Assembly (NCBI GenBank): GCA_017643395.1
Contig: JAEPNP010000001.1
Location: 186,001 to 250,000, forward strand
Length of the DNA: 64,000 nucleotides
Source of the DNA: Rhodothermales bacterium
GTDB lineage: Bacteria > Bacteroidota > Rhodothermia > Rhodothermales > UBA10348
Reading direction: 5' to 3'
Below, in pieces: positions 44,235 to 57,906 of this stretch; within the stretch, counting starts at the first letter, position 1; each line of letters opens with the position of its first letter. Under the pieces are notes generated by a model. It saw nothing but the letters and a program-made list of their open reading frames with translations, was not told the origin of the DNA and searched no databases. Position numbers and translations under genes: made by a program.

Positions 44235-46334
44235 TCAGTTGCGCGACTCGAGTTCTTCCTTGAGCGCGGTCGCGGCCGGATGACCCGGATTAGCCCGCAG
44301 ACCCGCGTTCAGCTGCGCCATGGCACTGATGGGGTCGCCTTTTCCGATGAATGCGCGGGCCAGAAGGACACGCATGTCCGTGTTGTCCGGGTTGGCTACC
44401 ACGACTCTGCCGATCATGTTGACGGCCTCCTCGTGGTTACCCGTCTGCAGGGCTACCAGCCCCAGGTTCAGCACCGGCGCCAGGTTGCCTTGCTCATACC
44501 CGAGCAGGGATGCCTTGCGCAGCACTTCCAGGCTCTCCTCGAGCTGGCCACTGCGCGCCAGGGCCGTACCCAGGTTGGTCAGGCCGTCCACGTAGTCCGG
44601 GTTCAGCGCCACCGCGTCGCGAGCCGCCGCGATGGACTCGTCCAGCCGACCTGCGGCCATGAGGGTAACCGCCAGTCCGTTGTGCGAGGCCGCGTCCCAG
44701 GGCTCCTCGGCAATCGCCTTCCGGTACGCTTCTTCGGCCTCCCCGAGTCGACTAAGCCGTTGCAGCAGATTGCCGTAGTCGGACAGAATGCGCACGGAAC
44801 CGGGCGTATAGGTCAGAGCGCGCTCGTAGAAGGACAACGCGGTGTCGAAGTCACCGTCTGCCTCCAGTGCGCGGGCCACACCATGCAATCGCTCGGCGTC
44901 CGTCGTGTCGGCGCGCGCCGCCGCCCGCATCGGCTCGACCGCCCCCTGCCGCCCCGCCAGCAGCAGCGCCTTTCCCCAGGTCAGCGCCGCCTCCGAGTTC
45001 TCTTCCTGCAGGAACCAGTCCCGCTCGCTTTCGGCCAGAATCAGGCCACGGGCGATGGCATCCATATCCCCGCGCCCGAATCCGTAGGTCAGATATGCCA
45101 GCGCCTCTTCTCCAGCAGAAGCCTCTCCTTCAAGCGGCTGCAGGACCACACCCTCCACGTTCTGGCCGGACACCGACTCCTCAACCGGGGCAGACGCACG
45201 AATGAAGTGATCCGTGAACGTGCTGTGCGGCGCGTTCTCCACTTCCCGCCGAGACATGTGGCAGTCCACGCATCCAACAGCCTCCTGGTGGGCACCCTGA
45301 AGCTCCGGCGCAACCTCCTGAGCCACCCCGGTGTGGCAGGACTGACAGGTGGCGTCAAAGTAGGCCGGCCCCTGATCACGGAATCCGTCGTGTGGATCAT
45401 GACACGTGGTACACTCCAGAGGGCGCTGCGTGCTTAGCGACTCCAGAAAGCAGGCACTTTGCTTGAGACGATCCGCGTGACTGACCACGCTGAAGCCCTG
45501 GTCATGCGCCGCTGCATACAGGACCTGGTGGTCGGAGAGCGCATCGCCCGGCCGAAACGAGTAAGGATCCTTCCCGTCGGGATACGTGACGACAGCCCCG
45601 TTCAGGTGACACTGCTGGCATACATCCAGGCGACGATCCATGGACAGCGACGCGAGCCGAACCAACGTCGGGTCACCTCCCTCCGGCGGGTTCGGCACCG
45701 CCCGTCGGGCCGCCACATGCTCCGAACCCGGACCGTGACAGCGCTCGCAGCTGATGGCCGCAGGCTGGGCACCGAACACATCGTCCAGCCCCTGCGCGCG
45801 GGGCGGCGCATCCGTGTGACAAGCCATGCATCGGGCGGTCACCTTACGATCAAATCGCTGATTCGCCTCGGCATAGCCCGGACTGAAGTCCCAGATTCCC
45901 TCCTGGGCGTACCACGTCAGTGGCAACTCGAAGTAGCGCCCGTTCACATGACTGACGTAGGTGCGCGCCGCCTGGGCACTGCCCACCACATGAGTGATCG
46001 GACGCACCAGACGATGCGTCTGGGTCCCGCGATCGTCCAGGCGGTACTCCTCCTGAAAAAACCGGTCTCCCTCGCGGAATGCCCTGTAGTAGAAATCGCT
46101 TTCCTCGTGGTAGACTGCCGGTCCCGGGAAGTCCTCGATCACTCGCTCCGGATGCATGGCATAGAACGAGTTGGCCATGCCGTGGGACTGGAAGGATGCG
46201 TACTGGTCCTCGTGGCAGGACGCACAGGCCGTGTCTCCGGTGTACGCCGCGGTTACCACGGGCACGTCGGACACCGACGGATCCGCCGGCGCACAGCCGA
46301 CCAGGAGCGCAACGAGAAAAAGCAGACGGGTCAT
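44235..46334 (-). CDS. Seven-haem c-type cytochrome fused to TPR repeats
   Basis: 699 aa with lipoprotein signal MTRLLFLVALLVGC. Seven CxxCH haem-binding motifs are visible: CASCH (37-41), CMACH (169-173), CERCH (196-200), CQQCH (239-243), CTTCH (308-312), CQSCH (330-334) and CVDCH (355-359). The order and the SCERCHGPGSEH segment resemble the cytochrome c554/NrfA-like multihaem superfamily. From about residue 440 to the end there are roughly seven TPRs (ERLHGVARALEADGDFDTALSFYERAL ... AMAQLNAGLRANPGHPAA). It would be exported and haem-loaded in the periplasm. An electron-transfer role or a scaffold is likely; the substrate is unknown. Confidence 0.9.
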   Translation of the reverse strand: MTRLLFLVALLVGCAPADPSVSDVPVVTAAYTGDTACASCHEDQYASFQSHGMANSFYAMHPERVIEDFPGPAVYHEESDFYYRAFREGDRFFQEEYRLDDRGTQTHRLVRPITHVVGSAQAARTYVSHVNGRYFELPLTWYAQEGIWDFSPGYAEANQRFDRKVTARCMACHTDAPPRAQGLDDVFGAQPAAISCERCHGPGSEHVAARRAVPNPPEGGDPTLVRLASLSMDRRLDVCQQCHLNGAVVTYPDGKDPYSFRPGDALSDHQVLYAAAHDQGFSVVSHADRLKQSACFLESLSTQRPLECTTCHDPHDGFRDQGPAYFDATCQSCHTGVAQEVAPELQGAHQEAVGCVDCHMSRREVENAPHSTFTDHFIRASAPVEESVSGQNVEGVVLQPLEGEASAGEEALAYLTYGFGRGDMDAIARGLILAESERDWFLQEENSEAALTWGKALLLAGRQGAVEPMRAAARADTTDAERLHGVARALEADGDFDTALSFYERALTYTPGSVRILSDYGNLLQRLSRLGEAEEAYRKAIAEEPWDAASHNGLAVTLMAAGRLDESIAAARDAVALNPDYVDGLTNLGTALARSGQLEESLEVLRKASLLGYEQGNLAPVLNLGLVALQTGNHEEAVNMIGRVVVANPDNTDMRVLLARAFIGKGDPISAMAQLNAGLRANPGHPAATALKEELESRN

Positions 46335-46900: not shown

Positions 46901-49900
46901 TTACCGCAGCACGGTCATGTGTCGCACGAGCGTGCGATTGGCTGCCTGCAGGCGGTACAGATACACGCCGCTGGCAAGCCGACTGGCATCGAACGGCACG
47001 TCATGGCGTCCCGCGGTCATGAACCCGTTCGCCAGCAGGCCGACCGAACGGCCAAGCATGTCGAACACCTCAAGCCGTACCGGCCCGTCTTCCGGCAGTC
47101 CGAATTCGATGCGCGTGTGCGGGTTGAACGGATTGGGGTAGTTCTGCTTCAACTCGTAGCTGTCCGGCGTCACGGCCAGAGGATCTCCCTCCGCGCCTCC
47201 GAATCGCAGTTCGCCCACGTTCAACTCGAACGGTGTGGACCGACCCTGCTCGCCAATCACGTAGAACGAGATCAGCAGCAGGTCAGACGGGTCGAGTGAG
47301 CCCGTTCCGTCCGGGCGCCGTAATTCGTCGAACCAGAGTCGATATGTTTGCGGTTGCCGTTCCAGTTTCACCACGGTCCCGTGGTGGTCCGAGGTGCGCA
47401 CCGACTCCTTCTCAAAGAGTACCCGAAGTTGCCCCGCGCCGGAGGCCGTAAACTCGACATACCGGTAGTCGGACAGGTCCATGGCGCGGCCGTTGGCCCG
47501 CAGATAGCGGAACAGAACCGCCCACGTGCGCACGCTGCCCGTCATATTGACGCTGCGTTCTATGCGATGCACACCGTCCTTGGCTGCGCCCTGGTCGGCC
47601 TCCACGCGAAAATCGTTCACGTCGGAGCCACCTTCACCGTCGTAGGTGTAGCTCCAGGCCCCATCGGCCAGGTAGACGACGTCCCGGTCACCGGCATCCG
47701 TTTCCACAAAAAATGAGGCGTCGAACAGCGGGCCGACCGGAATGCTTACCCGCGAGATCCCGTTTTCGTCCGGGCGCGGCACAGAGACCGATTCCTGGAA
47801 CGCCTGACGGTCCCCGAGTTCGGTGCGCTGGATGGTGCCGCCGGTGAGATGAATGCGACCGCGCGCCTTCGGATTGTAGAGCTCCAGTTCCAGCACGCCA
47901 CTGCTGTAGTTACCGGTCCGGATGTAGAGCTCCGGCGCCTGCGGCGGATTCGCCTCCGTATTAAGGAACGTGATCGGACCCATCTCGGCAAGACGTGCCA
48001 GTGAGGCCTCGACCATCATTCTTGTGTACGATGGACTCACCGACCAGACCTGCACATTGATGACGTCCTCTGCGTCTGCCGGCACGTCGTGCTCGTCCAG
48101 ACGGAATCGGCTGTCGACGGTCCACCCGGATCCGGTCCGGTAGGCCACGTAGGTCACGGCGTGATCGACCGCACCGTCCTCATGCACCAGGCGCGACAAC
48201 AGGAACGGTTGTCCGGCCGCCTGAATGGCCGCAACCGATGTGAGGTGCGCACCGCGCAGGCGATCGCACACGACTTTGGTGTGTTCGTACAGTTCGCCCG
48301 AAAGCGTCAACGTTGCAAACACGGCGCCAAGGCGCCGGCCATCGCGCATGCGCAGGTAGTCGGCAGCCACCACATCGGCAGCATTTGTCACGGGAAGGAT
48401 GTCCTCCGGCGAACTCTCGAAGGGCTCACTGCCGTCCGGTCCGGTGAGCGGTACCACGGCCCGCAGCGTCGGGTTGCTCAGCCCTGACTTGCCGGCACCG
48501 TCAAACTGGAATTTCGGCAGACCATCAATCCCTCCGGTCTGCGACGCTTCGAGTCGACGTGTGAACAGCACCCGGGCCAGTGTGCCCGCAAGCGAGCCGT
48601 CTGACTCCAGTCCTCCGCCGCCTCCGCCCGAGCCGCCGCTGGGCGTCACCGTGGCGTCATCCTGGTCGTCTTCGGTCGGCTGATTGTTGTTCGGCGTGGA
48701 ATCCACGTCCGTCTGATCCGCCGCGGTTACCTCTGCGGAATCCGTCGCCGGATCCGAGGTGGTCACCGTCGCCACGATGTCGAGTGTCGCGCCGCCCGAC
48801 ACGTTCACCGTACCGACGGTCCAGATCTCAGTGCCCGCATCGAACGAGCCCTGACTGGGCGTCGCAGACACAAAGGTGAGCGTGCCTGGCAGCGTATTCG
48901 TCACCTGAACATTGGTGGCCGTGTTCGGCCCCGCGTTGGCCAGTGTGATGGTGAATGTCACGTTGTCGCTGACATTCGGGCTCGGTTGATCGACGTCGAC
49001 TGTGAGCGACAGATCGATCGGACGGCGATACCCAAAGCGGTTTGCCGAGTCCGTATTGCCGAAGTCTGAGAATGAAGCCGTCTCCACGTTGTCCGTGGTC
49101 AGAACCGCATCGCCCGGGAGGTCTCCCGTATCGATGTCCATGACAAAGTTGCCTTCGGAGGCGACCACGAAGCTGAAATTGCCGCTGCCGTCGGTGTCCT
49201 GGGTCGCGACCTGGATGTCACCTCCATCAACGAGACCGTCTGCGTTTACGTCGCGGTAGAGCCTCACCGTAACACCGGAGGTGCCCGAGTCGGTGCCTCC
49301 CTCCCACGTGCCGTTCTCGTTCATGTCGAGAAAGACATTGCCCGAGATGGTGTTGACGCCGTCCACGAGACAGGAGACGGATTCGTGATCGGTGCCGGTG
49401 GTCAGGCTGCGCACGTGCGTCGCAACGCCGGTCGTCTTGTTGACCGTAAAGAAGGAGTTCCGGTTGGCACCGCCGCTGGTCCCGGTCGAACCGTAGAGTT
49501 CACCGTAGGCGTCGAACGCAAGGCCTTCCATGTCGTCCTGCCCCAGGGCACCGACACTGGTGACGCTGCCGTCGGTCTTGTTGATGGTCACCAGCACATC
49601 GGCCGTGGACGAGTTGTTGATGCCGTACAGGGTGCCGTTGTAGGCGTCGATGGCGATGTCGTCGATGTCGGGCAGACCGGTGACAGCCGTGGAAGCGATC
49701 ACCAGGTAGTCCACGCCTGCTCCGAACGCGTCCGGGATAAAGGCTCCGGTCGTCGTATTGATCTGGAACAGGAGGTCATCCAGGTTGGTGGCGCCCTCCC
49801 GGCGTTCGGTGGCCCAAAGGATGCCGGTCAGCGGGTCAAAGGCCAGCCCGTCCGCATCGTCCAGCGTCTGAAGTCCGTCGGCGCCGTCGCCCTGGCCGAT

Positions 49901-51391
49901 CGTTCCAATGGATGTGAAGACGCCGGTGCTTGTGTTCAGCGTGCCGAAGTCGCCGCCGTCCACCGCGTAGAGAATCTCCGTTTCCGGCCAGTAGGCCGAG
50001 GCTTCGATGACGGTGGTGCCGGTCGCACCTACGCTCTGCTCGGTCGATCCGCTGCGCGTGGTGCGCAGGAGCGTGTCCCCGGAGTCAGCCACCACGTAGC
50101 AGACCTGCCCTCCGATGGCAGTCGGAGTCAGGCTTTCCGAATCGTCGTCATCCTCGTTGGTGGAGGCGTTGTTCGGGGTGGAGTCGAGGTCGTTGAAGTC
50201 GTGGCTCTTGACTTCGAAGCTCTGCGTGACGGGATCAAACGTATCGACGGTTACCACTATGGACAGCGTGGCCGTGCCCGAAGCGGTCAACGTGCCGACA
50301 TTCCATTCGCCGGTCCCGGAATTGTAGGTGCCCTGACTTGGAGTCGAGGACTTGTAGGTCAGCCCTGAGTCGAGCGTGGCATTGACAATGACGCTCGTCG
50401 CGTTGTTGCCCGACTGCTCGTCCAGCGTCAGCGTCAGGGTCATGTCCGAACCGACGGGCGGCGTCAACGAAGAGGCGGACGATGCGAGTGCCAGGTCCAC
50501 GTCGACGGCCGGCGCTGTCCACGGGCTCTCGTCGGGCTCGGCGAGCGGCGTCGCGCCAAGCAGCAACATGGCAAGGACCACTACACCCGCGGGCATGGCG
50601 GAAAGGTTGCGGTCCTGACGACCCCGGTCCCGTTCCCAGCTCATTCCCCATGAGAACAGCGCGATGAATGCGAACACTTCGACCGGAAGGCCGAACAGAA
50701 TGAACAGAATCGGCATGTAGAGTAATCCGCCGTAGTACAGGACCACCCCGTGCACGGCATACTTGAGGGGAATCATGAAGAAGAGGTAGCCCATGCACAC
50801 CACCGTGATGGTCGCTTTTTGCCACCACCGGTAGTCCAGGATCCAGTGCGTGACCGCCAGGATGAGTGGCACCACCCCGATGAGTGTCATGCCTGCGCCG
50901 GTGAGGCCGGTCAGGTAGTCGCCGGCCGTGTACGGAAACGGCCAGGGCTGAATGGCGAAGAAGGCGACGGCAGAGCCCTGGATGAGGGCCGCCGCGCGGA
51001 GGAAATAGTTGGTCGGTGCCATCTTGGCCGGCAGCAGGTAGCTCAGGATGACCAGACACAGACACACCGTCCCGGTCACGATCAGATGCGCACGGGAGGG
51101 CTCGAACGAAGGCAGATCCAGTTTGGGCAGTACCAGCGCCAGGCGATCGCCGATCACGTAGTGAAGCGCTGTCGTGCCGCTGGCCATGCCGAGCGGTTCA
51201 CGCACGACATCGAGGATCCATACCCAGACCGAGCCGGTGAAGGGCAGAGTGGCTACCCACACGAGCGTGACCAGCAGGCCCAGCAGAGCCATCGGCACAA
51301 TGTGCGCGCGGGACTCCGTGCGTCGGATGCCGCGGTGCCGGTGCAGATACGTGGTCGCCCTGCCCGGATACTTCTTGCGCAAGTTCCTCAT
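46901..51391 (-). CDS. Giant hybrid: polytopic membrane domain + DUF11/SdrB-like domains + type IX sorting domain
   Basis: 1496 aa from the ATG at 51391, which overlaps the YaiO-like stop (ATGA); the frame opens further upstream. Residues ~30-250 contain about seven hydrophobic helices (IVPMALLGLLVTLVWVATLP, HLIVTGTVCLCLVILSYLL, ITVVCMGYLFFMIPL). Residues 250-285 look like a second secretion signal (MSWERDRGRQDRN then MPAGVVVLAMLLLGATPLA). A DUF11-like domain follows (~295-425), a propeller-like region (~430-675), an SdrD B-like domain (ISGNVFLDMNENGTWEGG), a second DUF11 (~790-915), Gly-rich linker and two beta-rich domains. The end is a type A sorting domain (NYPNPFNPHTRIEFGLPEDG ... SGVYLYRL). 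Inner-membrane helices and a type IX export signal are hard to reconcile in one chain. Confidence 0.85.
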   Translation of the reverse strand: MRNLRKKYPGRATTYLHRHRGIRRTESRAHIVPMALLGLLVTLVWVATLPFTGSVWVWILDVVREPLGMASGTTALHYVIGDRLALVLPKLDLPSFEPSRAHLIVTGTVCLCLVILSYLLPAKMAPTNYFLRAAALIQGSAVAFFAIQPWPFPYTAGDYLTGLTGAGMTLIGVVPLILAVTHWILDYRWWQKATITVVCMGYLFFMIPLKYAVHGVVLYYGGLLYMPILFILFGLPVEVFAFIALFSWGMSWERDRGRQDRNLSAMPAGVVVLAMLLLGATPLAEPDESPWTAPAVDVDLALASSASSLTPPVGSDMTLTLTLDEQSGNNATSVIVNATLDSGLTYKSSTPSQGTYNSGTGEWNVGTLTASGTATLSIVVTVDTFDPVTQSFEVKSHDFNDLDSTPNNASTNEDDDDSESLTPTAIGGQVCYVVADSGDTLLRTTRSGSTEQSVGATGTTVIEASAYWPETEILYAVDGGDFGTLNTSTGVFTSIGTIGQGDGADGLQTLDDADGLAFDPLTGILWATERREGATNLDDLLFQINTTTGAFIPDAFGAGVDYLVIASTAVTGLPDIDDIAIDAYNGTLYGINNSSTADVLVTINKTDGSVTSVGALGQDDMEGLAFDAYGELYGSTGTSGGANRNSFFTVNKTTGVATHVRSLTTGTDHESVSCLVDGVNTISGNVFLDMNENGTWEGGTDSGTSGVTVRLYRDVNADGLVDGGDIQVATQDTDGSGNFSFVVASEGNFVMDIDTGDLPGDAVLTTDNVETASFSDFGNTDSANRFGYRRPIDLSLTVDVDQPSPNVSDNVTFTITLANAGPNTATNVQVTNTLPGTLTFVSATPSQGSFDAGTEIWTVGTVNVSGGATLDIVATVTTSDPATDSAEVTAADQTDVDSTPNNNQPTEDDQDDATVTPSGGSGGGGGGLESDGSLAGTLARVLFTRRLEASQTGGIDGLPKFQFDGAGKSGLSNPTLRAVVPLTGPDGSEPFESSPEDILPVTNAADVVAADYLRMRDGRRLGAVFATLTLSGELYEHTKVVCDRLRGAHLTSVAAIQAAGQPFLLSRLVHEDGAVDHAVTYVAYRTGSGWTVDSRFRLDEHDVPADAEDVINVQVWSVSPSYTRMMVEASLARLAEMGPITFLNTEANPPQAPELYIRTGNYSSGVLELELYNPKARGRIHLTGGTIQRTELGDRQAFQESVSVPRPDENGISRVSIPVGPLFDASFFVETDAGDRDVVYLADGAWSYTYDGEGGSDVNDFRVEADQGAAKDGVHRIERSVNMTGSVRTWAVLFRYLRANGRAMDLSDYRYVEFTASGAGQLRVLFEKESVRTSDHHGTVVKLERQPQTYRLWFDELRRPDGTGSLDPSDLLLISFYVIGEQGRSTPFELNVGELRFGGAEGDPLAVTPDSYELKQNYPNPFNPHTRIEFGLPEDGPVRLEVFDMLGRSVGLLANGFMTAGRHDVPFDASRLASGVYLYRLQAANRTLVRHMTVLR

Positions 51392-52194
51392 CGGCGCCCC
51401 GCGGCGTTGAATCCAAAGAAGAGCGATACCTCCACCCCGGTCCGGGTGTAGTACGGGTTGTTGTACCAGGAGCCCGATACCTGAAGCCCGGAGGTCCGCG
51501 TCAACCACTGCCGCCAGGCCACGCGCCCCATGCGGCTGTCAAAGTTTGTGTAGATCACCAGCGGATCGATGATCTGATAGGCCTCAGAGCCCATCGCCGC
51601 ATGCAGTAGCAGCGTTGCCTTTCCGTGCCGGCCAATCGTAAGCGCGGCGTCGTGATAGCGTGACGTGGCCTCGCCCGGATTGCTTAGCTGAAACCGCACG
51701 CCGCCCTGCGCAATCAGCCATCGACTGAAGTAGACCTGCGCTTCCACGATAGCCGCCATGTCCTGATGCCCGTCGCGTACTTCCCGGAAGAAGCCGCTGA
51801 CAAGCAGCACCACCTTGCGACGCGGAGGCAGCTTGCGGCCGATGGTCACGTCCGCGCGATACTTCGGATTGTAGAACCCGCCGTTTGAGGTGCGTGCCGC
51901 CACCCGGGTGATCCACGCTCCCAGATTGGCCGTGTGCTGCAGTTTGTAGGCAAAGCTCGGCTCTCCGAAGCGATGCTCGGCCACGGCCTCGCCGTTCCAG
52001 ATCATCTTCGGGCCACGTACAAACTCCGTGCGCACCACGGCCCCGCGCCACGGGCTGATGCCCGCGTCAAAGCTGTAGTTCAGCCCACCGATTTCCACCC
52101 GATCGCGGGGCGGGGCGGTTTGCTGCAGTCCCTGCGCGTGCGCGGTCGTGGCGGCGCAGGTAATGATCGAGGCCAGAAACAGATGTCGGAGCAT
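51388..52194 (-). CDS. YaiO-family outer-membrane beta-barrel protein
   Basis: 268 aa from the ATG at 52194, which gives signal peptide MLRHLFLASIITCAATTAHAQ; a GTG at 52239 is also open. The rest is alternating amphipathic strands with aromatic ends (GLNYSFDAGISPWRGAVVRTEF, RWLIAQGGVRFQLSNPG, LQVSGSWYNNPYYTRTGVEVSLFFGF), fitting a small barrel of the YaiO type. In E. coli yaiO sits by the glycosyltransferase gene yaiP, and here too a GT2 enzyme is close by. It may form the outer-membrane exit or docking site for the glycan or for the coupled giant protein. Confidence 0.7.
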   Translation of the reverse strand: MLRHLFLASIITCAATTAHAQGLQQTAPPRDRVEIGGLNYSFDAGISPWRGAVVRTEFVRGPKMIWNGEAVAEHRFGEPSFAYKLQHTANLGAWITRVAARTSNGGFYNPKYRADVTIGRKLPPRRKVVLLVSGFFREVRDGHQDMAAIVEAQVYFSRWLIAQGGVRFQLSNPGEATSRYHDAALTIGRHGKATLLLHAAMGSEAYQIIDPLVIYTNFDSRMGRVAWRQWLTRTSGLQVSGSWYNNPYYTRTGVEVSLFFGFNAAGRR

Positions 52195-52290
52195 GGGCAC
52201 ACCGGCTTTGCCGCCGGCGCATGGCTGTGGTTCCTCCACGCGAGTGGCAAGCAGTGTGCCGTGCTCCTTTTCGGGCTTTTTGGCGTTTCA

Positions 52291-52329
52291 GGAGGGACTC
52301 CCTCCCTGCCCGACGGGCAAAACTTGCCC
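52291..52329 (-). promoter_or_regulatory. Stacked alternative hairpins in the wecB-yaiO gap
   Basis: The ~195-bp gap contains a perfect GGAGGGA/TCCCTCC palindrome (52291-52305). Next to it are two mutually exclusive stems sharing the centre GGGCA: TGCCC (52307-52311) with GGGCA (52315-52319), or GGGCAA (52315-52320) with TTGCCC (52324-52329). Shared-arm hairpins upstream of a gene suggest attenuation. I recognise no known riboswitch class. Confidence 0.35.
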
Positions 52330-52390
52330 TGACCCCTACCCCGTCTGCTTTTGTGTCGGCCGCCAGAGCCGGCCTCTCCGCCCCTTCTGA

Positions 52391-53575
52391 TCAGGCGGCG
52401 CGAATGACTCGCTGGGAGCCCGCCAGATCCTGGACCAGCACACGGGCGATGGCCTGTCCGGCATGCCCATCGCCGTAGGGATTCCTCACCGTGCGCATGC
52501 GGCTGTGCACGATAGGCTTCTCGAGCAGCGTCTCTACCCAGCGCCGGATCTTGCCGGGATCAGTGGCCACGAGGGCGCCGCCGCCGGCCTCGATGAGCTC
52601 CGGACGTTCGGTCGTCTTGCGCGTGACAAGCACGGGCACACGCAGTGCCGCGGCCTCCTCCTGGATGCCGCCGGAGTCCGTAATGGTCAGCCAGGCATTC
52701 CGCAGCGTCCACAGCATCTGCGGGTAGTTGAGCGGCCCCGTCAGCAGGACCCGCTCGTGCACATCGGGCGCAAGGTCTTTCATGACCCCGATCACCGTCT
52801 TGCGCACAACCGGATTCGCATGCACCGGCCACACGACGCGCAACTCGGGATGTGTCTCTGCCAATTCACGCACCGTGTGCGCGATACGAGCCAGGGGCGC
52901 CCCCCAGTTCTCGCGGCGATGGGCCGTGACGAGCACAATCTTGGAGCCTTCCGAGGCCTTTACGAACGGCGCCACGTCGCAGCCCTCGACTGCACCCCCG
53001 CCGGCGTAGTGCGAGATGGCGTAGTCCATGCCGAGTCGGGTCGCATCTACAATGGTATTGCCCACCATGTCGATGCCGTCTCGGGCAATGCCTTCCTCGG
53101 TGAGATTGTCCACCGCGCGCTCGGTCGGTGCGAAATGCCACCGCGCTATCTGTGCGAGCAGCACCCGGTTTTGCTCCTCGGGAAACGGATCGCTCATGTC
53201 GTGCGAGCGCAGGCCGGCCTCCACGTGGCCCACAGGGATCTGCGCGTACGATGCCGCCAGTCCCGCCATGAGCGCCGAGGAGGTATCGCCGTGGACCAGA
53301 ACGGCCTCAGCATCTTCGGAAGCGATGACCGCATCGACCCCGTCCATGAGTCTGCCACCCAGGTAACCCAGCGTTGACCGTTCACGCTTTAGCGTGATCA
53401 CGTGGGCCGGATCCATCTCGAAGAACTCGTAGACCGGCCATGCCATTTCCTCGTGCTGGCCCGTGTGCACCACGACGGGTGTCAGGGGACTGCCCTGGAG
53501 GGCATGGTAGACCGGAGCCATCTTGATGATCTCCGGACGCGTACCCATGCACAGCAGGATGCGCTTCTGGCTCAT
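52391..53575 (-). CDS. wecB: UDP-N-acetylglucosamine 2-epimerase (non-hydrolysing)
   Basis: 394 aa. It interconverts UDP-GlcNAc and UDP-ManNAc. The start ILLCMGTRPEIIKMAPV is diagnostic. VVHTGQHEEM, VHGDTSSALMAGLAA, GHVEAGLRSHDMSDPFPEEQNR, TAHRRENWG, PVHANPVV and ITDSGGIQEEA follow in the normal WecB order and include the catalytic Asp, Glu and His positions. The position between a GT2 synthase and an outer-membrane barrel suggests that ManNAc is part of a surface glycan. A small palindrome (AAGGCCA/TGGCCTT, 53644-53660) lies just upstream of its start. Confidence 0.95.
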   Translation of the reverse strand: MSQKRILLCMGTRPEIIKMAPVYHALQGSPLTPVVVHTGQHEEMAWPVYEFFEMDPAHVITLKRERSTLGYLGGRLMDGVDAVIASEDAEAVLVHGDTSSALMAGLAASYAQIPVGHVEAGLRSHDMSDPFPEEQNRVLLAQIARWHFAPTERAVDNLTEEGIARDGIDMVGNTIVDATRLGMDYAISHYAGGGAVEGCDVAPFVKASEGSKIVLVTAHRRENWGAPLARIAHTVRELAETHPELRVVWPVHANPVVRKTVIGVMKDLAPDVHERVLLTGPLNYPQMLWTLRNAWLTITDSGGIQEEAAALRVPVLVTRKTTERPELIEAGGGALVATDPGKIRRWVETLLEKPIVHSRMRTVRNPYGDGHAGQAIARVLVQDLAGSQRVIRAA

Positions 53576-53685
53576 GTGGAAAGAGGGGTGCGTCTTGTGG
53601 CGGTTCGCAACAAGAGCGGTATCGACCTCTTTCCGGCGCCCTCAAGGCCAATTTGGCCTTTATTCTGGCTCCGTCGACGTGGAAG

Positions 53686-54798
53686 TCAGGCGGCCATGCG
53701 GGAAACCGTGCGTAGCGCCACGCGGCCGGCCTCGACGGCCATCACAACTCCGTGGACGCGCGCTCCCTGCTCCATCAGTACCGTGTTTCCTGTGGCTGTC
53801 GATGGCGTCTCCGGTGTGCCGACCTCGGCACCCCATCGCACGGTCAACTGACCCTCCGAACCTGCGATGCCCGTGACTCGGGAGCCGGCTCGCAATTCGA
53901 GTGACGTGTTCGAGAACACCTCTCCTTCGACCGAGGCGCCGACCTCAAGCAGAATCGAGCCTTCGGCCTTGATGGAGCCCTCGACGCGGGCTCCGCGCCC
54001 AAGGCGGAGGTTGCCGAGTACAATGAGGTCTCCCCTCCAGACATGTTCGGGGGGAATTGTCAGGTTTCCGTCCACCTGATGCGCCTTGCCGTGTCTGGCA
54101 GCGCGTCCGTTGAGGCGGAAGAGCGGCGGAAGGTCCAGCGTGCGGTGCAGAGAGGGTACCTGCCCCTCCGGCCAATGCCACTCGTCTCCGAAGCGGATTT
54201 CCAGACTGGCGAGCCGCTCAAACTGGCAACCGGGCCACACCTGCAGCATGCGGTGGGCGGCGACGGAGCCGTTAAGTTCGCAGCCGGCCAATGCACGAAG
54301 CGTGCGGCGGGCGTGGATCCAGTCCCCGATCACGGTTTCGTCACCCAGAAATGCGTCTCCATCCACGAACAGTTTTTGGATCAGGCTGCCCTGGCCGGAC
54401 TCGAAGGCCCCGGAGATGTAGGTCTGCCGCAGCAGTCCGGCGCCGGCCGGCCATTGGGTGAGCGTGTTGCGCACCACCACCAGCGGCAGTACGCCGTTCT
54501 GGAAGTCGGGGGTGTCGGTGGAATGCGGGCCGATGACCTCGTAGAACTTTCGAAGCGCTTCGACGCCTCCGCCCGGCCGGCCCCCTGCGGCGAGGTAGTT
54601 GGAGACCGCTTCCTGCACATGCGTGGCGACCTCCTGTCCAAAGTTCTCGGCGACCAGGTGATGGTCGTCCGCGTAGGTGTCGGAAATGGTCAGGGGCAGC
54701 TTGTCCCGCCCTGTGCGCCATTCCGTGAGCGCCGGCCAGGCCGGGAGCAACAGGACAAGCGCTGCGGCAACGATCAGTATGACCACACCGATCGTCAT
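53686..54798 (-). CDS. Membrane-anchored polymer-forming (bactofilin-like) protein
   Basis: 370 aa. An N-terminal anchor (MTIGVVILIVAAALVLLLPAWPAL) is followed by an alpha/beta region (~30-230) with no recognised family. Then comes a right-handed beta-helix stretch of ~100 residues: GDLIVLGNLRLGRGARVEGSIKAEGSILLEVGASVEGEVFSNTSLELRAGSRVTG. Its regular G-x-[IVL] turns are those of bactofilins (DUF583). Bactofilins self-assemble into filaments that localise envelope enzymes. The ATG overlaps the GT2 stop (ATGA). It may position or cap the synthase; that is inference. Confidence 0.75.
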   Translation of the reverse strand: MTIGVVILIVAAALVLLLPAWPALTEWRTGRDKLPLTISDTYADDHHLVAENFGQEVATHVQEAVSNYLAAGGRPGGGVEALRKFYEVIGPHSTDTPDFQNGVLPLVVVRNTLTQWPAGAGLLRQTYISGAFESGQGSLIQKLFVDGDAFLGDETVIGDWIHARRTLRALAGCELNGSVAAHRMLQVWPGCQFERLASLEIRFGDEWHWPEGQVPSLHRTLDLPPLFRLNGRAARHGKAHQVDGNLTIPPEHVWRGDLIVLGNLRLGRGARVEGSIKAEGSILLEVGASVEGEVFSNTSLELRAGSRVTGIAGSEGQLTVRWGAEVGTPETPSTATGNTVLMEQGARVHGVVMAVEAGRVALRTVSRMAA

Positions 54799-56837
54799 GA
54801 CTGTTTCTTCGGGGAGGATGGGATGCGGTGGCCCACGGTGGGCGCCCTGCTGGCCACACGATCGGGTGCGGACGGTGGCCGACGGTCTCGTTTTCGGAGT
54901 TCGTCAGCCGGTCTCGGGCCGGATTGTGGGGGCTTCGGGGAAGGTTGTTGCGGGGCCGGGGCGGCTTGCTGCGGGGCCGGGGCGGCCTGCTGCTGCGGGG
55001 CCGGGGCGGCCTGCGGCGGGGCCGGGGCGGCCTGTTGCGGGGCCGGGGTCGACCGCTGAATCGGTGCCCATGCGGGCGGACGCGGTGCCGCTTCACGATT
55101 TGCGGCTCGATCCGGAGCAGGGGCGGGAGCAACCGCCGCAGGCCGCATCGGGCGCTGCGCGGGCGGTGCCATCGGCGCCGGTGCCATCGGCGCCGGGGCC
55201 GGAACCGGTTGCGGAACAGCCGGAATGGCATCCGCGCTGCGAATCGTCTCCTCTGCGCTAGCCGGCGTGCGGTACCTCTCCGTCTTGTCCCAGACCACCT
55301 CTTTGCGGCGACGCGGCCAGAGTTGGGTCATGACGGCCCGCGAGGTGGAGACCAGGCTGACCAGAAAACCGCCGAGGACCAGCGGGAGAATGCGAATGCG
55401 ACGCTCGGTTCCGTCCAGATGCGCGGCCGCGCCGATCTCAAAAAAGGCCGCGAAGTTGCCGATGGTGTTGTAGGCGGCCACCGAGAAAATGGCCACGGCC
55501 CCCAGGAACGGGTTCGCACCGAGATAGAAGGCCAGGATGGCCAGGAACCAGCCGATCAGCAGGATCGGCGACATCAAATAGGTGCCCAACAGAAGGGCGC
55601 CGTCCAGCCGTTCTCGAAACGTCAGCCGCGGTCTGGACCATAGTCCCGGCATGTAGCGCACGGCGGCGTCGGTGTGCCCGCGAGCCCATCGCATGATCTG
55701 CCGAATGCGGACGGGCCAGGTCTCCGGGACCTCCTCGTAGCACTCGTAACGATTCGAATAGGCGATCTTCCATCCGCCCAGGACCAGACGGAACGTGATA
55801 TCGGTGTCCTCAGCGAGTGAGTCCTCGCGCCAGCCGCCGACGGCTTTCAGCGCGGAAACGCGCACGCCGCCGACCGTACCGCCATATTGGGCGATCACCT
55901 TCAGATTCATGCGCGCCTGCTGGTCCACCTGATACCCACCGCAGCGCTCCAGATCGAGCAGCCGCGTGAGCAGATTCCGAGGCGTGTTCACGGGTACCAC
56001 GCGGCCCATGACGGCACCGACCTGCGGGTCCAGGAATGGTGCGGCCAGGCGCTTGATCAGGTCTCGGCCGGGCAGATAGTCGGCGTCAAATACGAGAATG
56101 ACGTCATCGGTCACGTCCGCGATCGCATCCTGCAGCGCGGCCGCCTTGCCCGGTGTACCACCCTCCCTGTGTAAGGGGAAGATGCGAGTTGCGTGGTTCG
56201 CCGCGTACCGGTCGATGATGTCCCGCGTCCCGTCGGTGGAGCGGTCGTTCACCGGCACAATGCGCATGCGATCAGCCGGGTAGTCCGCTGCGAGCAGTGC
56301 CTCCAGGATGGACGCGACCACGCGCTCCTCATTGTGGCAGGGGATCAGGACGGTCAGACTGGGCCAGTTGGCGACGTCAATCGGCAGGTAGGTATGCCGC
56401 TGCCTGCCATAAAGCCGGTTGTATGTAAAGGTGTAGTGCCGAACGCCGTACACGCAGATCAGCGCAACGATCGAGTACAGTACCCAGAGCACAGCCTTGA
56501 TCCAGGCTGCGCGGTCGCGATCCCAGGTCGTGCCATACCAATGCGGAGGCAAGTGACCCACCTCGACCCCGTCTGGCAGCGGAATCGGTGATTCAAGTTT
56601 CGCCAGCTGGGCATCATTTGCCGAGCCCGTAGCCGTTTTTGCCGTCGTTTCCACTGCGACGGCGCTGTCCAGAACCAGAGTGCCGGCGTCCTCGCCGTAG
56701 CGCGCACAGCCGCTCACTACGCTCAAAAGCAGCAGAAGCGTACAGAAACGCAGGATTCCAGATGTGGAAACCCGCCGAGATCGGCCTTGGGAAGCGACGT
56801 TGATCGGCATGAAGCAGATGGTGTGAGCCACCTGCAT
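54795..56837 (-). CDS. Processive GT2 glycosyltransferase with lipobox N-terminus and Pro/Ala/Gln tail
   Basis: 680 aa. The catalytic domain (~155-400) has VLIPCHNEERVV, VNDRSTDGT (Asp198), FDADY (Asp251/Asp253), AEDTD (344-346) and QIMRW (380-384): the D, DxD, TED-type and QxxRW motifs of cellulose/chitin/poly-GlcNAc synthases. One helix precedes it (~113-132) and about four follow (~410-520). Unusually, the N-terminus (FCTLLLLLSVVSGC) is a lipoprotein signal with Cys44. The last ~130 residues are Pro/Ala/Gln repeats ending in a basic stretch. GGAAGG sits just before the ATG at 56837; an ATG at 56810 is possible. Coupled to the bactofilin-like gene by ATGA. The donor sugar is unknown; UDP-GlcNAc or UDP-ManNAc fits wecB. 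Confidence 0.88.
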   Translation of the reverse strand: MQVAHTICFMPINVASQGRSRRVSTSGILRFCTLLLLLSVVSGCARYGEDAGTLVLDSAVAVETTAKTATGSANDAQLAKLESPIPLPDGVEVGHLPPHWYGTTWDRDRAAWIKAVLWVLYSIVALICVYGVRHYTFTYNRLYGRQRHTYLPIDVANWPSLTVLIPCHNEERVVASILEALLAADYPADRMRIVPVNDRSTDGTRDIIDRYAANHATRIFPLHREGGTPGKAAALQDAIADVTDDVILVFDADYLPGRDLIKRLAAPFLDPQVGAVMGRVVPVNTPRNLLTRLLDLERCGGYQVDQQARMNLKVIAQYGGTVGGVRVSALKAVGGWREDSLAEDTDITFRLVLGGWKIAYSNRYECYEEVPETWPVRIRQIMRWARGHTDAAVRYMPGLWSRPRLTFRERLDGALLLGTYLMSPILLIGWFLAILAFYLGANPFLGAVAIFSVAAYNTIGNFAAFFEIGAAAHLDGTERRIRILPLVLGGFLVSLVSTSRAVMTQLWPRRRKEVVWDKTERYRTPASAEETIRSADAIPAVPQPVPAPAPMAPAPMAPPAQRPMRPAAVAPAPAPDRAANREAAPRPPAWAPIQRSTPAPQQAAPAPPQAAPAPQQQAAPAPQQAAPAPQQPSPKPPQSGPRPADELRKRDRRPPSAPDRVASRAPTVGHRIPSSPKKQS

Positions 56838-56850
56838 GCACCTTCCGTGC

Positions 56851-57906
56851 CTAGTCGCGCGGAGCGACCACCGCGGAGATCGGCGGCGCCGCCCCCGTTA
56901 TAGTGAAGTCGAAGCCCATCAGCGCCGCAACGGTCGCCGCTACCTGCGCCTGGTCAAAACCGACGCCCCGCAGCTCGCCGCCGGCCGGGATCGATGGCCC
57001 GAGCGCGGCCAGCCAGATGTACTCCGAGCCCGCCCATTCTTCGCCCGTACCGTGGCCTACCCAGCCATCGCCCGACCCGCGACCGTGGTCCGTGGTGATG
57101 ATCAGCGAAGTGCGGCCCGCATATGCGGAATCCGTCTGGAGGAACGTCCAAAGCCCCTGCAGGAACGCGTCGGTATTGCGGGCGGCTCGGATGTAAGCAG
57201 GAAAGTTGTCGTTGTGCGCAAAGTCGTCCGTCTCGCCATACGAGATGTAGACGACTTCGGGCGATGCCCTCTTCATGTACTCCAGCGCGTAGTGATGCGT
57301 AAACGCGTCGAGGCGCACAGTGCCCCACGGGCTCGGGATCTGTGCCTGCAGCTCATTGAGGAATGACTCCCTCTCGGAACGTTCGGGGTCCAGCGAAGGC
57401 TCGAACCCGGCATTGACCGGGATACCGCTGCGCTCCTCGTTGATGATGTATGGGAATACATCCCAGGAGCCGAAAGCGGCGGCGCGAACTCCGGCTCGGG
57501 TTTGTAACCACTCCAGCACGGTGACATTGGGATTCGGCACCTTGTCGTTGGAGTCGATGCGCTCATCCACCCTGCCTGTCAGTATCTCATTGTAGCCCGG
57601 GTAGGAGAACACGTGGCCGTTGGTAACTCGGCCCGTGCTTCCCAGCTGACGATTGCCGAGCAGCACGCCTTGCGTGGCCAGGGTCCTCCACAACCAGGGC
57701 ATAAGGGTCGTGCGGCGCTCGGCCGCATCGCCCACGCCAAACTCGGCGAGCAGGGACTCATCCTCCGTCATGGACGGGTCCATGCCGCGGAAGACTTCCT
57801 CCCAGCGCAGACCGTCCAGTGTGACGAGGACAACGCGGGTTTCCTGGGCGTGAGAGGGCGCTGTGGCCAGGACGAGGAAAAGGACAAGGAGAGGCAGTAC
57901 ACGCAT
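56851..57906 (-). CDS. Alkaline phosphatase superfamily hydrolase
   Basis: 351 aa from the ATG at 57906 with signal peptide MRVLPLLVLFLVLATAPSHAQ; the open frame upstream overlaps the subtilase gene and is rejected. VVLVTLDGLRWEEVFRG carries the first metal-binding Asp. A Thr/Ser nucleophile is expected near GSTGRVTNGHVFSYPGYNEILTGR, and TDHGRGSGDGWVGHGTG supplies the Asp-His and distal His ligands. This pattern fits type I phosphodiesterase, sulfatase or phosphoglycerol transferase relatives. It ends only 13 bp before the GT2 start, so it may belong to that operon, perhaps modifying the glycan. Confidence 0.85.
   Translation of the reverse strand: MRVLPLLVLFLVLATAPSHAQETRVVLVTLDGLRWEEVFRGMDPSMTEDESLLAEFGVGDAAERRTTLMPWLWRTLATQGVLLGNRQLGSTGRVTNGHVFSYPGYNEILTGRVDERIDSNDKVPNPNVTVLEWLQTRAGVRAAAFGSWDVFPYIINEERSGIPVNAGFEPSLDPERSERESFLNELQAQIPSPWGTVRLDAFTHHYALEYMKRASPEVVYISYGETDDFAHNDNFPAYIRAARNTDAFLQGLWTFLQTDSAYAGRTSLIITTDHGRGSGDGWVGHGTGEEWAGSEYIWLAALGPSIPAGGELRGVGFDQAQVAATVAALMGFDFTITGAAPPISAVVAPRD

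Follow-up and report, generated by a model that had tools for sequence, protein, structure and literature searches.

A candidate exopolysaccharide cassette with an uncharacterised membrane protein family, conserved in three bacterial phyla

Glycosyltransferase family 2 (GT2) synthases carrying a QxxRW motif polymerise and extrude polysaccharide chains, and WecB makes UDP-N-acetylmannosamine (UDP-ManNAc). In Salmonella Borreze O:54, a single synthase and a WecB-type epimerase make a ManNAc homopolymer. In E. coli, the GT2 NfrB and the barrel NfrA act with WecB to produce NGR, a putative polymer of ManNAc (PMC8669469, PMC8669472). In Komagataeibacter cellulose synthesis, a cytoplasmic cortical-belt cytoskeleton organises the exopolysaccharide synthase (PMC7811197). 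The locus reported here is found in a 64,000 nucleotide stretch of DNA (the window) that lies within a 2.09-Mb contig of the 4.5-Mb genome of a Rhodothermales bacterium. It encodes a GT2 synthase, a bactofilin-like protein, WecB, a YaiO-family barrel and a member of a membrane protein family, termed MEM, and it appears to be a synthase-dependent exopolysaccharide cassette that works like E. coli Nfr/NGR, a reading given a probability of about 0.6. The five components are as follows.

54795–56837, minus strand: GT2 membrane synthase, 680 amino acids (aa); PF13641, 110.9 bits.
53686–54798, minus strand: bactofilin-like protein, 370 aa; PF04519, 28.1 bits against a cut-off of 27.9 (marginal).
52391–53575, minus strand: WecB, non-hydrolysing UDP-N-acetylglucosamine (UDP-GlcNAc) 2-epimerase, 394 aa; TIGR00236 equivalog, 377 bits, cut-off 210.
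51388–52194, minus strand: YaiO-family outer-membrane beta-barrel, 268 aa; TIGR04390, 104.6–104.9 bits, cut-off 32.
50630–51391, minus strand: MEM, a membrane domain with six transmembrane (TM) helices, residues 1–254 of a giant protein; 29 homologues aligned.

All five genes are found within 5–8 kb at 23 loci, the window included (tblastn, all loci), and these loci span Rhodothermales, Gemmatimonadota and Pseudomonadota. The order GT2-bactofilin-WecB-YaiO-MEM is present in Rhodothermales, Burkholderiales and locus L026, with YaiO inverted in L030; the order WecB-YaiO-MEM-GT2-bactofilin is present in Gemmatimonadota and the Acidiferrobacter type. The two differ by a swap of the blocks GT2-bactofilin and WecB-YaiO-MEM. 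Loci with an incomplete gene set are mostly on contigs that end there, and YaiO was not detected by tblastn at L027 and L038. A first-pass annotation of the window had named an unconserved gene order in relatives as the result that would count against a surface-glycan system; the order is in fact conserved, across phyla.

MEM is encoded in nine of 60 related genomes, the window genome counted. Eight of these nine also carry a cassette-type GT2 (62–88% identity); in the ninth, a genome of 70% completeness, the contig starts within WecB. The other 51 genomes have no such GT2, their closest GT2s reaching 34% identity at most. The association of GT2 with MEM is far beyond chance (Fisher p = 3.5e-9, an optimistic value given that relatedness makes the genomes non-independent). 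Among 41 genomes searched, cassette-type WecB too occurs only in those with MEM. Pairwise distances of the five proteins correlate with r = 0.89–0.96, which partly reflects common genome history. In a GT2 tree the cassette GT2s form a single clade (support 91/97), and within it the Gemmatimonadota sequences pair with the Acidiferrobacter type, the same grouping as given by gene order. This agreement suggests that the cassette was transferred as a block between phyla. NfrB, YaiP and PgaC sit on very long branches of this tree, and their positions are unreliable.

In the window, the first-pass annotation described six minus-strand genes, i.e. the giant, YaiO, WecB, bactofilin-like and GT2 genes and a phosphatase-superfamily gene. 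A check of the open reading frames found all six, and domain scans bore out their family labels, the Bactofilin label marginally. The tight coupling ascribed to them holds in part: the 13-bp gap between the phosphatase-superfamily and GT2 genes and the ATGA overlaps at GT2/bactofilin-like and YaiO/giant are exact, but two of the five junctions are loose, with 110 bp ahead of WecB and ~196 bp ahead of YaiO. A scan of the locus for sigma-70-type promoters gave no site, although such a scan is uninformative in this bacterial group.

The GT2 catalytic domain lies at about residues 159–387, with an N-terminal hydrophobic segment and further TM helices. The processive motifs claimed for it are readable in the window sequence as VND, DAD, AED and QIMRW, and DxD, ED and QxxRW are kept in all 23 cassette GT2s. 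A membrane GT2 with processive motifs is a feature of the synthase-dependent exopolysaccharide class. The window protein also shows a Pro/Ala/Gln-rich low-complexity tail (54795–55250, minus strand) longer than in most homologues, and a lipobox-like LSVVSGC after its first hydrophobic segment (56650–56837, minus strand), which is unusual for a GT2 synthase.

WecB aligns over its full length with the E. coli enzyme structures 1vgv and 1f6d, with active-site segments in common, and as a wecB equivalog by score it would supply UDP-ManNAc. Four further wecB-type matches are present in the window genome. YaiO probably starts at the ATG at 52194, although the reading frame opens at a GTG at 52239, and it carries a signal peptide. 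All 13 cassette YaiO homologues match TIGR04390. An outer-membrane barrel within the gene set is also a feature of the exopolysaccharide class, polysaccharide export itself being predicted. No NfrA_C (PF13283) match was found in the barrel by domain scan, and by hhalign the YaiO profile gave no signal with NfrA or with the single E. coli YaiO sequence. The latter result shows the weakness of a single-sequence test, because all members match the YaiO family model.

The bactofilin-like protein consists of a single N-terminal TM helix followed by a predicted beta-helix, and 14 of 16 cassette homologues match Bactofilin PF04519 at E ≤ 0.01. An alignment shows positive residues after the TM helix in nearly all homologues; therefore the C-terminus is probably cytoplasmic. 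The protein may act as a cytoplasmic scaffold.

MEM is a separate gene outside the genus of the window, of roughly 265–290 aa in most loci. None of 29 homologues has a Pfam match, and the window MEM is also without an NCBIfam match. An AlphaFold model (pLDDT 86) displays six long helical TM stretches with a hairpin after the first. Searches of the PDB gave no Foldseek hit at E ≤ 0.001, and VIA-align scores did not exceed Z 7.1, so that no known fold could be assigned to the model; a new fold is not thereby proved. A relationship with PgaD was tested and not supported. Positive residues are found at both ends of MEM, and both termini would therefore be cytoplasmic. In a species-wide genome collection MEM is present at 27 loci at least, a lower bound as the scan used one short peptide pattern. 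These loci are in Rhodothermales, Gemmatimonadota, Burkholderiales, Rhodocyclales, the Acidiferrobacter type and another gammaproteobacterium; the Burkholderiales and Rhodocyclales carriers are Duganella, Pseudoduganella and Oryzomicrobium. Within the phylum of the window MEM is rare (three of 394 genomes).

The giant open reading frame (46901–51391, minus strand, 1496 aa from an ATG that overlaps the YaiO stop) had been taken for a plain type IX secretion system (T9SS) cargo protein. Instead it joins a conserved membrane component to a cargo, a fusion at the level of the genus. Its first ~254 residues, which the first-pass annotation did not mention, are the six-helix MEM domain, and they are followed by these segments.

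50549–50605, minus strand: seventh hydrophobic segment, signal-peptide-like by hydropathy, residues 263–281, at the MEM/cargo joint.
50156–50506, minus strand: first DUF11 repeat, residues ~296–412 (PF01345; limits approximate, estimated from the sequence).
48680–49015, minus strand: second DUF11 repeat, residues 793–904 (PF01345, the best of two stretches).
47669–48601, minus strand: N-terminal part of a conserved cargo module, residues 931–1241 (conserved in 18 homologues; AlphaFold model).
47168–47668, minus strand: CBM11-like jelly roll, residues ~1242–1408 (fold match).
46901–47140, minus strand: T9SS type A C-terminal sorting domain and stop (TIGR04183, 34.7 bits, cut-off 23).

The C-terminal module of the cargo was modelled by AlphaFold with pLDDT 83. 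The jelly roll aligns with CBM11 1v0a (Z 12.5, 3.3 Å, 145 residues) and has no Pfam sequence match. By fold comparison the last ~85 residues of the giant match the C-terminal domains of PorU and PorZ. The genome encodes T9SS machinery (PorU, 962.8 bits; SprA, 1975.6 bits), and with the sorting domain this is in keeping with a T9SS type A cargo. In Rhodothermales, seven of eight relatives' loci have a T9SS cargo behind MEM or fused to it; in Pseudomonadota and Gemmatimonadota no cargo was found at the locus. The module was considered as specific to the system and rejected as such, being a general surface-protein module. Open frames of 7,600–11,600 aa that end in the CBM11-like and T9SS module occur in another Rhodothermales genus, in genomes G029, G043 and G053 (loci L061, L063, L067, L074 and L077).

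From these parts the following working model is proposed. WecB would convert UDP-GlcNAc to UDP-ManNAc, and the membrane-embedded GT2 would polymerise ManNAc and extrude the chain through the inner membrane, with MEM as its putative inner-membrane partner. The membrane-anchored bactofilin-like protein may cluster or position the synthases from the cytoplasmic side, and the YaiO barrel would let the chain exit through the outer membrane. In Rhodothermales the T9SS-secreted DUF11 protein, with its CBM11-like domain, is probably a matrix protein or adhesin that binds the polymer. In the genus of the window the seventh segment would send the cargo to the periplasm, where signal peptidase would free it for export by the T9SS. 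E. coli Nfr serves as the precedent, and the polymer is probably ManNAc-based.

Several observations weigh against this model. The Bactofilin match is marginal, the part given to MEM comes from linkage and topology only, and a pore function of YaiO barrels for polysaccharide is unproven. The jelly roll is equally close to a protein that is not a CBM, 7zkq_A (a chain of a complex I assembly intermediate; Z 12.8), and the cargo module also ends free-standing giants in Rhodothermales without the cassette. The sugar donor and the product are inferred. The GT2 scores closer to PgaC, which uses UDP-GlcNAc, than to NfrB, and this weakens the case for ManNAc.

The same export system could then carry another polymer, with the GT2 using UDP-GlcNAc (a product like poly-N-acetylglucosamine or chitin) or another sugar, and WecB serving a minor sugar or decoration. 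This is the strongest of the alternatives, although a good deal less probable than the Nfr-like model. Among curated models the GT2 scores best with PgaC/IcaA (TIGR03937, 130.3 bits, far under the equivalog cut-off of 422.3), and in a BLAST comparison with three reference synthases it is closest to E. coli PgaC (33% identity over 247 residues). However, a dedicated WecB is kept in all five-gene loci despite the other wecB-type genes of the window genome, a pattern that UDP-ManNAc as main donor would predict.

The fusion itself could be an artefact of assembly or annotation; alternatively, translation of the cargo could begin on its own at an internal ATG, residue 266 of the giant. Outside the genus MEM and the cargo are encoded separately; in homologues (L014, L017 and L018) the cargo has its signal peptide at a separate N-terminus, whereas in the window this is internal, behind MEM. 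An in-frame ATG does stand ahead of the signal-peptide-like segment. However, in three species of the genus, each with its own assembly, no stop divides the two frames, the third being cut by a contig end. Between the window and genome G001, the proportions of synonymous and non-synonymous differences (pS/pN) are 0.84/0.06 in alignment columns 236–262, upstream of the ATG, and 0.66/0.27 in columns 263–290. Synonymous differences far exceed non-synonymous differences at the joint, which is thus translated, with purifying selection acting on it in the three species. Conserved Arg/Lys residues, needed before a signal segment, precede the seventh hydrophobic segment and lie upstream of the residue-266 ATG. 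Thus an artefact or an internal start is unlikely. Six helices would leave the C-terminus of MEM in the cytoplasm, and the segment that follows would be oriented to export the cargo, whose release by signal peptidase is predicted.

Less probable still is a product other than a free polymer, with the GT2 and its partners making a surface glycolipid, a lipopolysaccharide (LPS) modification or a protein glycan. WecB also serves LPS- and enterobacterial common antigen-type pathways, and T9SS type A cargos of Porphyromonas are anchored to a special LPS. The Acidiferrobacter-type and Burkholderiales loci need no T9SS, which leaves room for other acceptors. The five-gene set, however, contains no flippase, ligase, polymerase or undecaprenyl-phosphate transferase, and it has a processive-type QxxRW and a dedicated outer-membrane barrel.

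That the genes are merely unrelated neighbours holds for the phosphatase-superfamily gene and is refuted for the other five, which are linked across phyla in two orders. The former, which the first-pass annotation counted as a component, was rejected as part of the system, with no homologue at any relative's locus examined.

56851–57906, minus strand: phosphatase-superfamily gene (Phosphodiest PF01663, 25.5 bits, cut-off 23).

This alkaline-phosphatase-superfamily gene encodes a signal peptide and lies 13 bp upstream of GT2, yet is found at no other cassette locus. On the other side, each of the three species of the window's genus has a multihaem cytochrome/TPR protein gene close to the cassette, with 58% and 51% identity.

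44235–46334, minus strand: multihaem cytochrome/TPR gene of the window; its counterparts are L011:14159–16279 and L012:14219–14920.

Neighbours differ in other groups. The cassette is situated inside a fap functional-amyloid gene set in the Acidiferrobacter-type loci (L039–L045), flanked at one end by FapC, FapD-type and FapE-like genes and at the other by a FapF-type gene (e.g. L041:3634–5844, L041:6595–7416 and L045:13089–14165). The FapC match is 229 bits against a cut-off of 195; the FapD, FapE and FapF matches are under their equivalog cut-offs. A sigma-54 regulator with a VpsR domain adjoins the cassette in these loci. The fap setting and the Rhodothermales cargo setting both point to a biofilm matrix. 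In the gammaproteobacterial locus L026 a weakly deacetylase-like gene (L026:6083–7939; 17.6 bits, under cut-off) is found between the bactofilin-like gene and WecB; it and the VpsR-domain regulator are further neighbours in line with a biofilm matrix.

A wider reading, held tentatively and with less than even confidence, is that these loci represent a class of exopolysaccharide machine not described before and spanning phyla, in which a bactofilin scaffolds a ManNAc-polymer synthase, six-TM proteins form a new subunit family and the matrix partners vary (a CBM-bearing T9SS protein, Fap amyloid), with a self-releasing polyprotein, MEM fused to its matrix protein, in the window. A conserved five-gene surface-glycan locus is present in three phyla and matches no named system found; no description of this gene set was found in the open-licence literature around YaiO, bactofilin and 2-epimerase. 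With the locus comes an uncharacterised membrane protein family that may supply a synthase subunit. It also suggests a tie between polysaccharide synthesis and a bactofilin-type cytoskeletal protein that can be tested, with Duganella and Pseudoduganella as cultured carriers. If the polymer is ManNAc-based, the cassette would be a second, distinct route to NGR-type glycans, which phages use as receptors.

Among the known systems, the Borreze O:54 locus is a plasmid-borne O-antigen locus that is not known to have a barrel, bactofilin or MEM. The Komagataeibacter cortical belt consists of different proteins, and the comparable role of the bactofilin-like protein is putative. The pgaABCD system has a GT2 of the same broad type and export by an outer-membrane barrel, but the cassette has no PgaA TPR barrel and no PgaB, its MEM is unrelated to PgaD and its GT2 is below the PgaC cut-off. 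With respect to cellulose synthesis, the GT2 gives 68.4 bits with the CelA equivalog TIGR03030 (cut-off 699.1) and no PilZ match by domain scan. The E. coli yaiS-yaiP-yaiX-yaiO cluster also combines a GT2 with a YaiO barrel (25% identity of the GT2 to YaiP over 227 residues), but it also includes a deacetylase and a disrupted gene for an acyltransferase, and WecB, a bactofilin-like protein and MEM are absent from the region. Scores and architecture led to rejection of Nfr, pga or bcs membership, and together with the conserved order this gives good support to the glycan synthesis and export system of unfamiliar layout first proposed, less its phosphatase and its plain-cargo giant. NfrB and NfrA show no significant similarity to the cassette GT2 and YaiO (best GT2 match to NfrB 28% over 72 residues, E-value = 0.026). 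Compared with Nfr/NGR, the cassette is without the cyclic di-GMP (MshEN) domain of the GT2 (none found by Pfam), the NfrA TPR barrel and YbcH, and adds the bactofilin-like protein and MEM. What the two share is a GT2 synthase, an outer-membrane barrel and a WecB for the supply of UDP-ManNAc, and in some genomes wecB adjoins nfrB.

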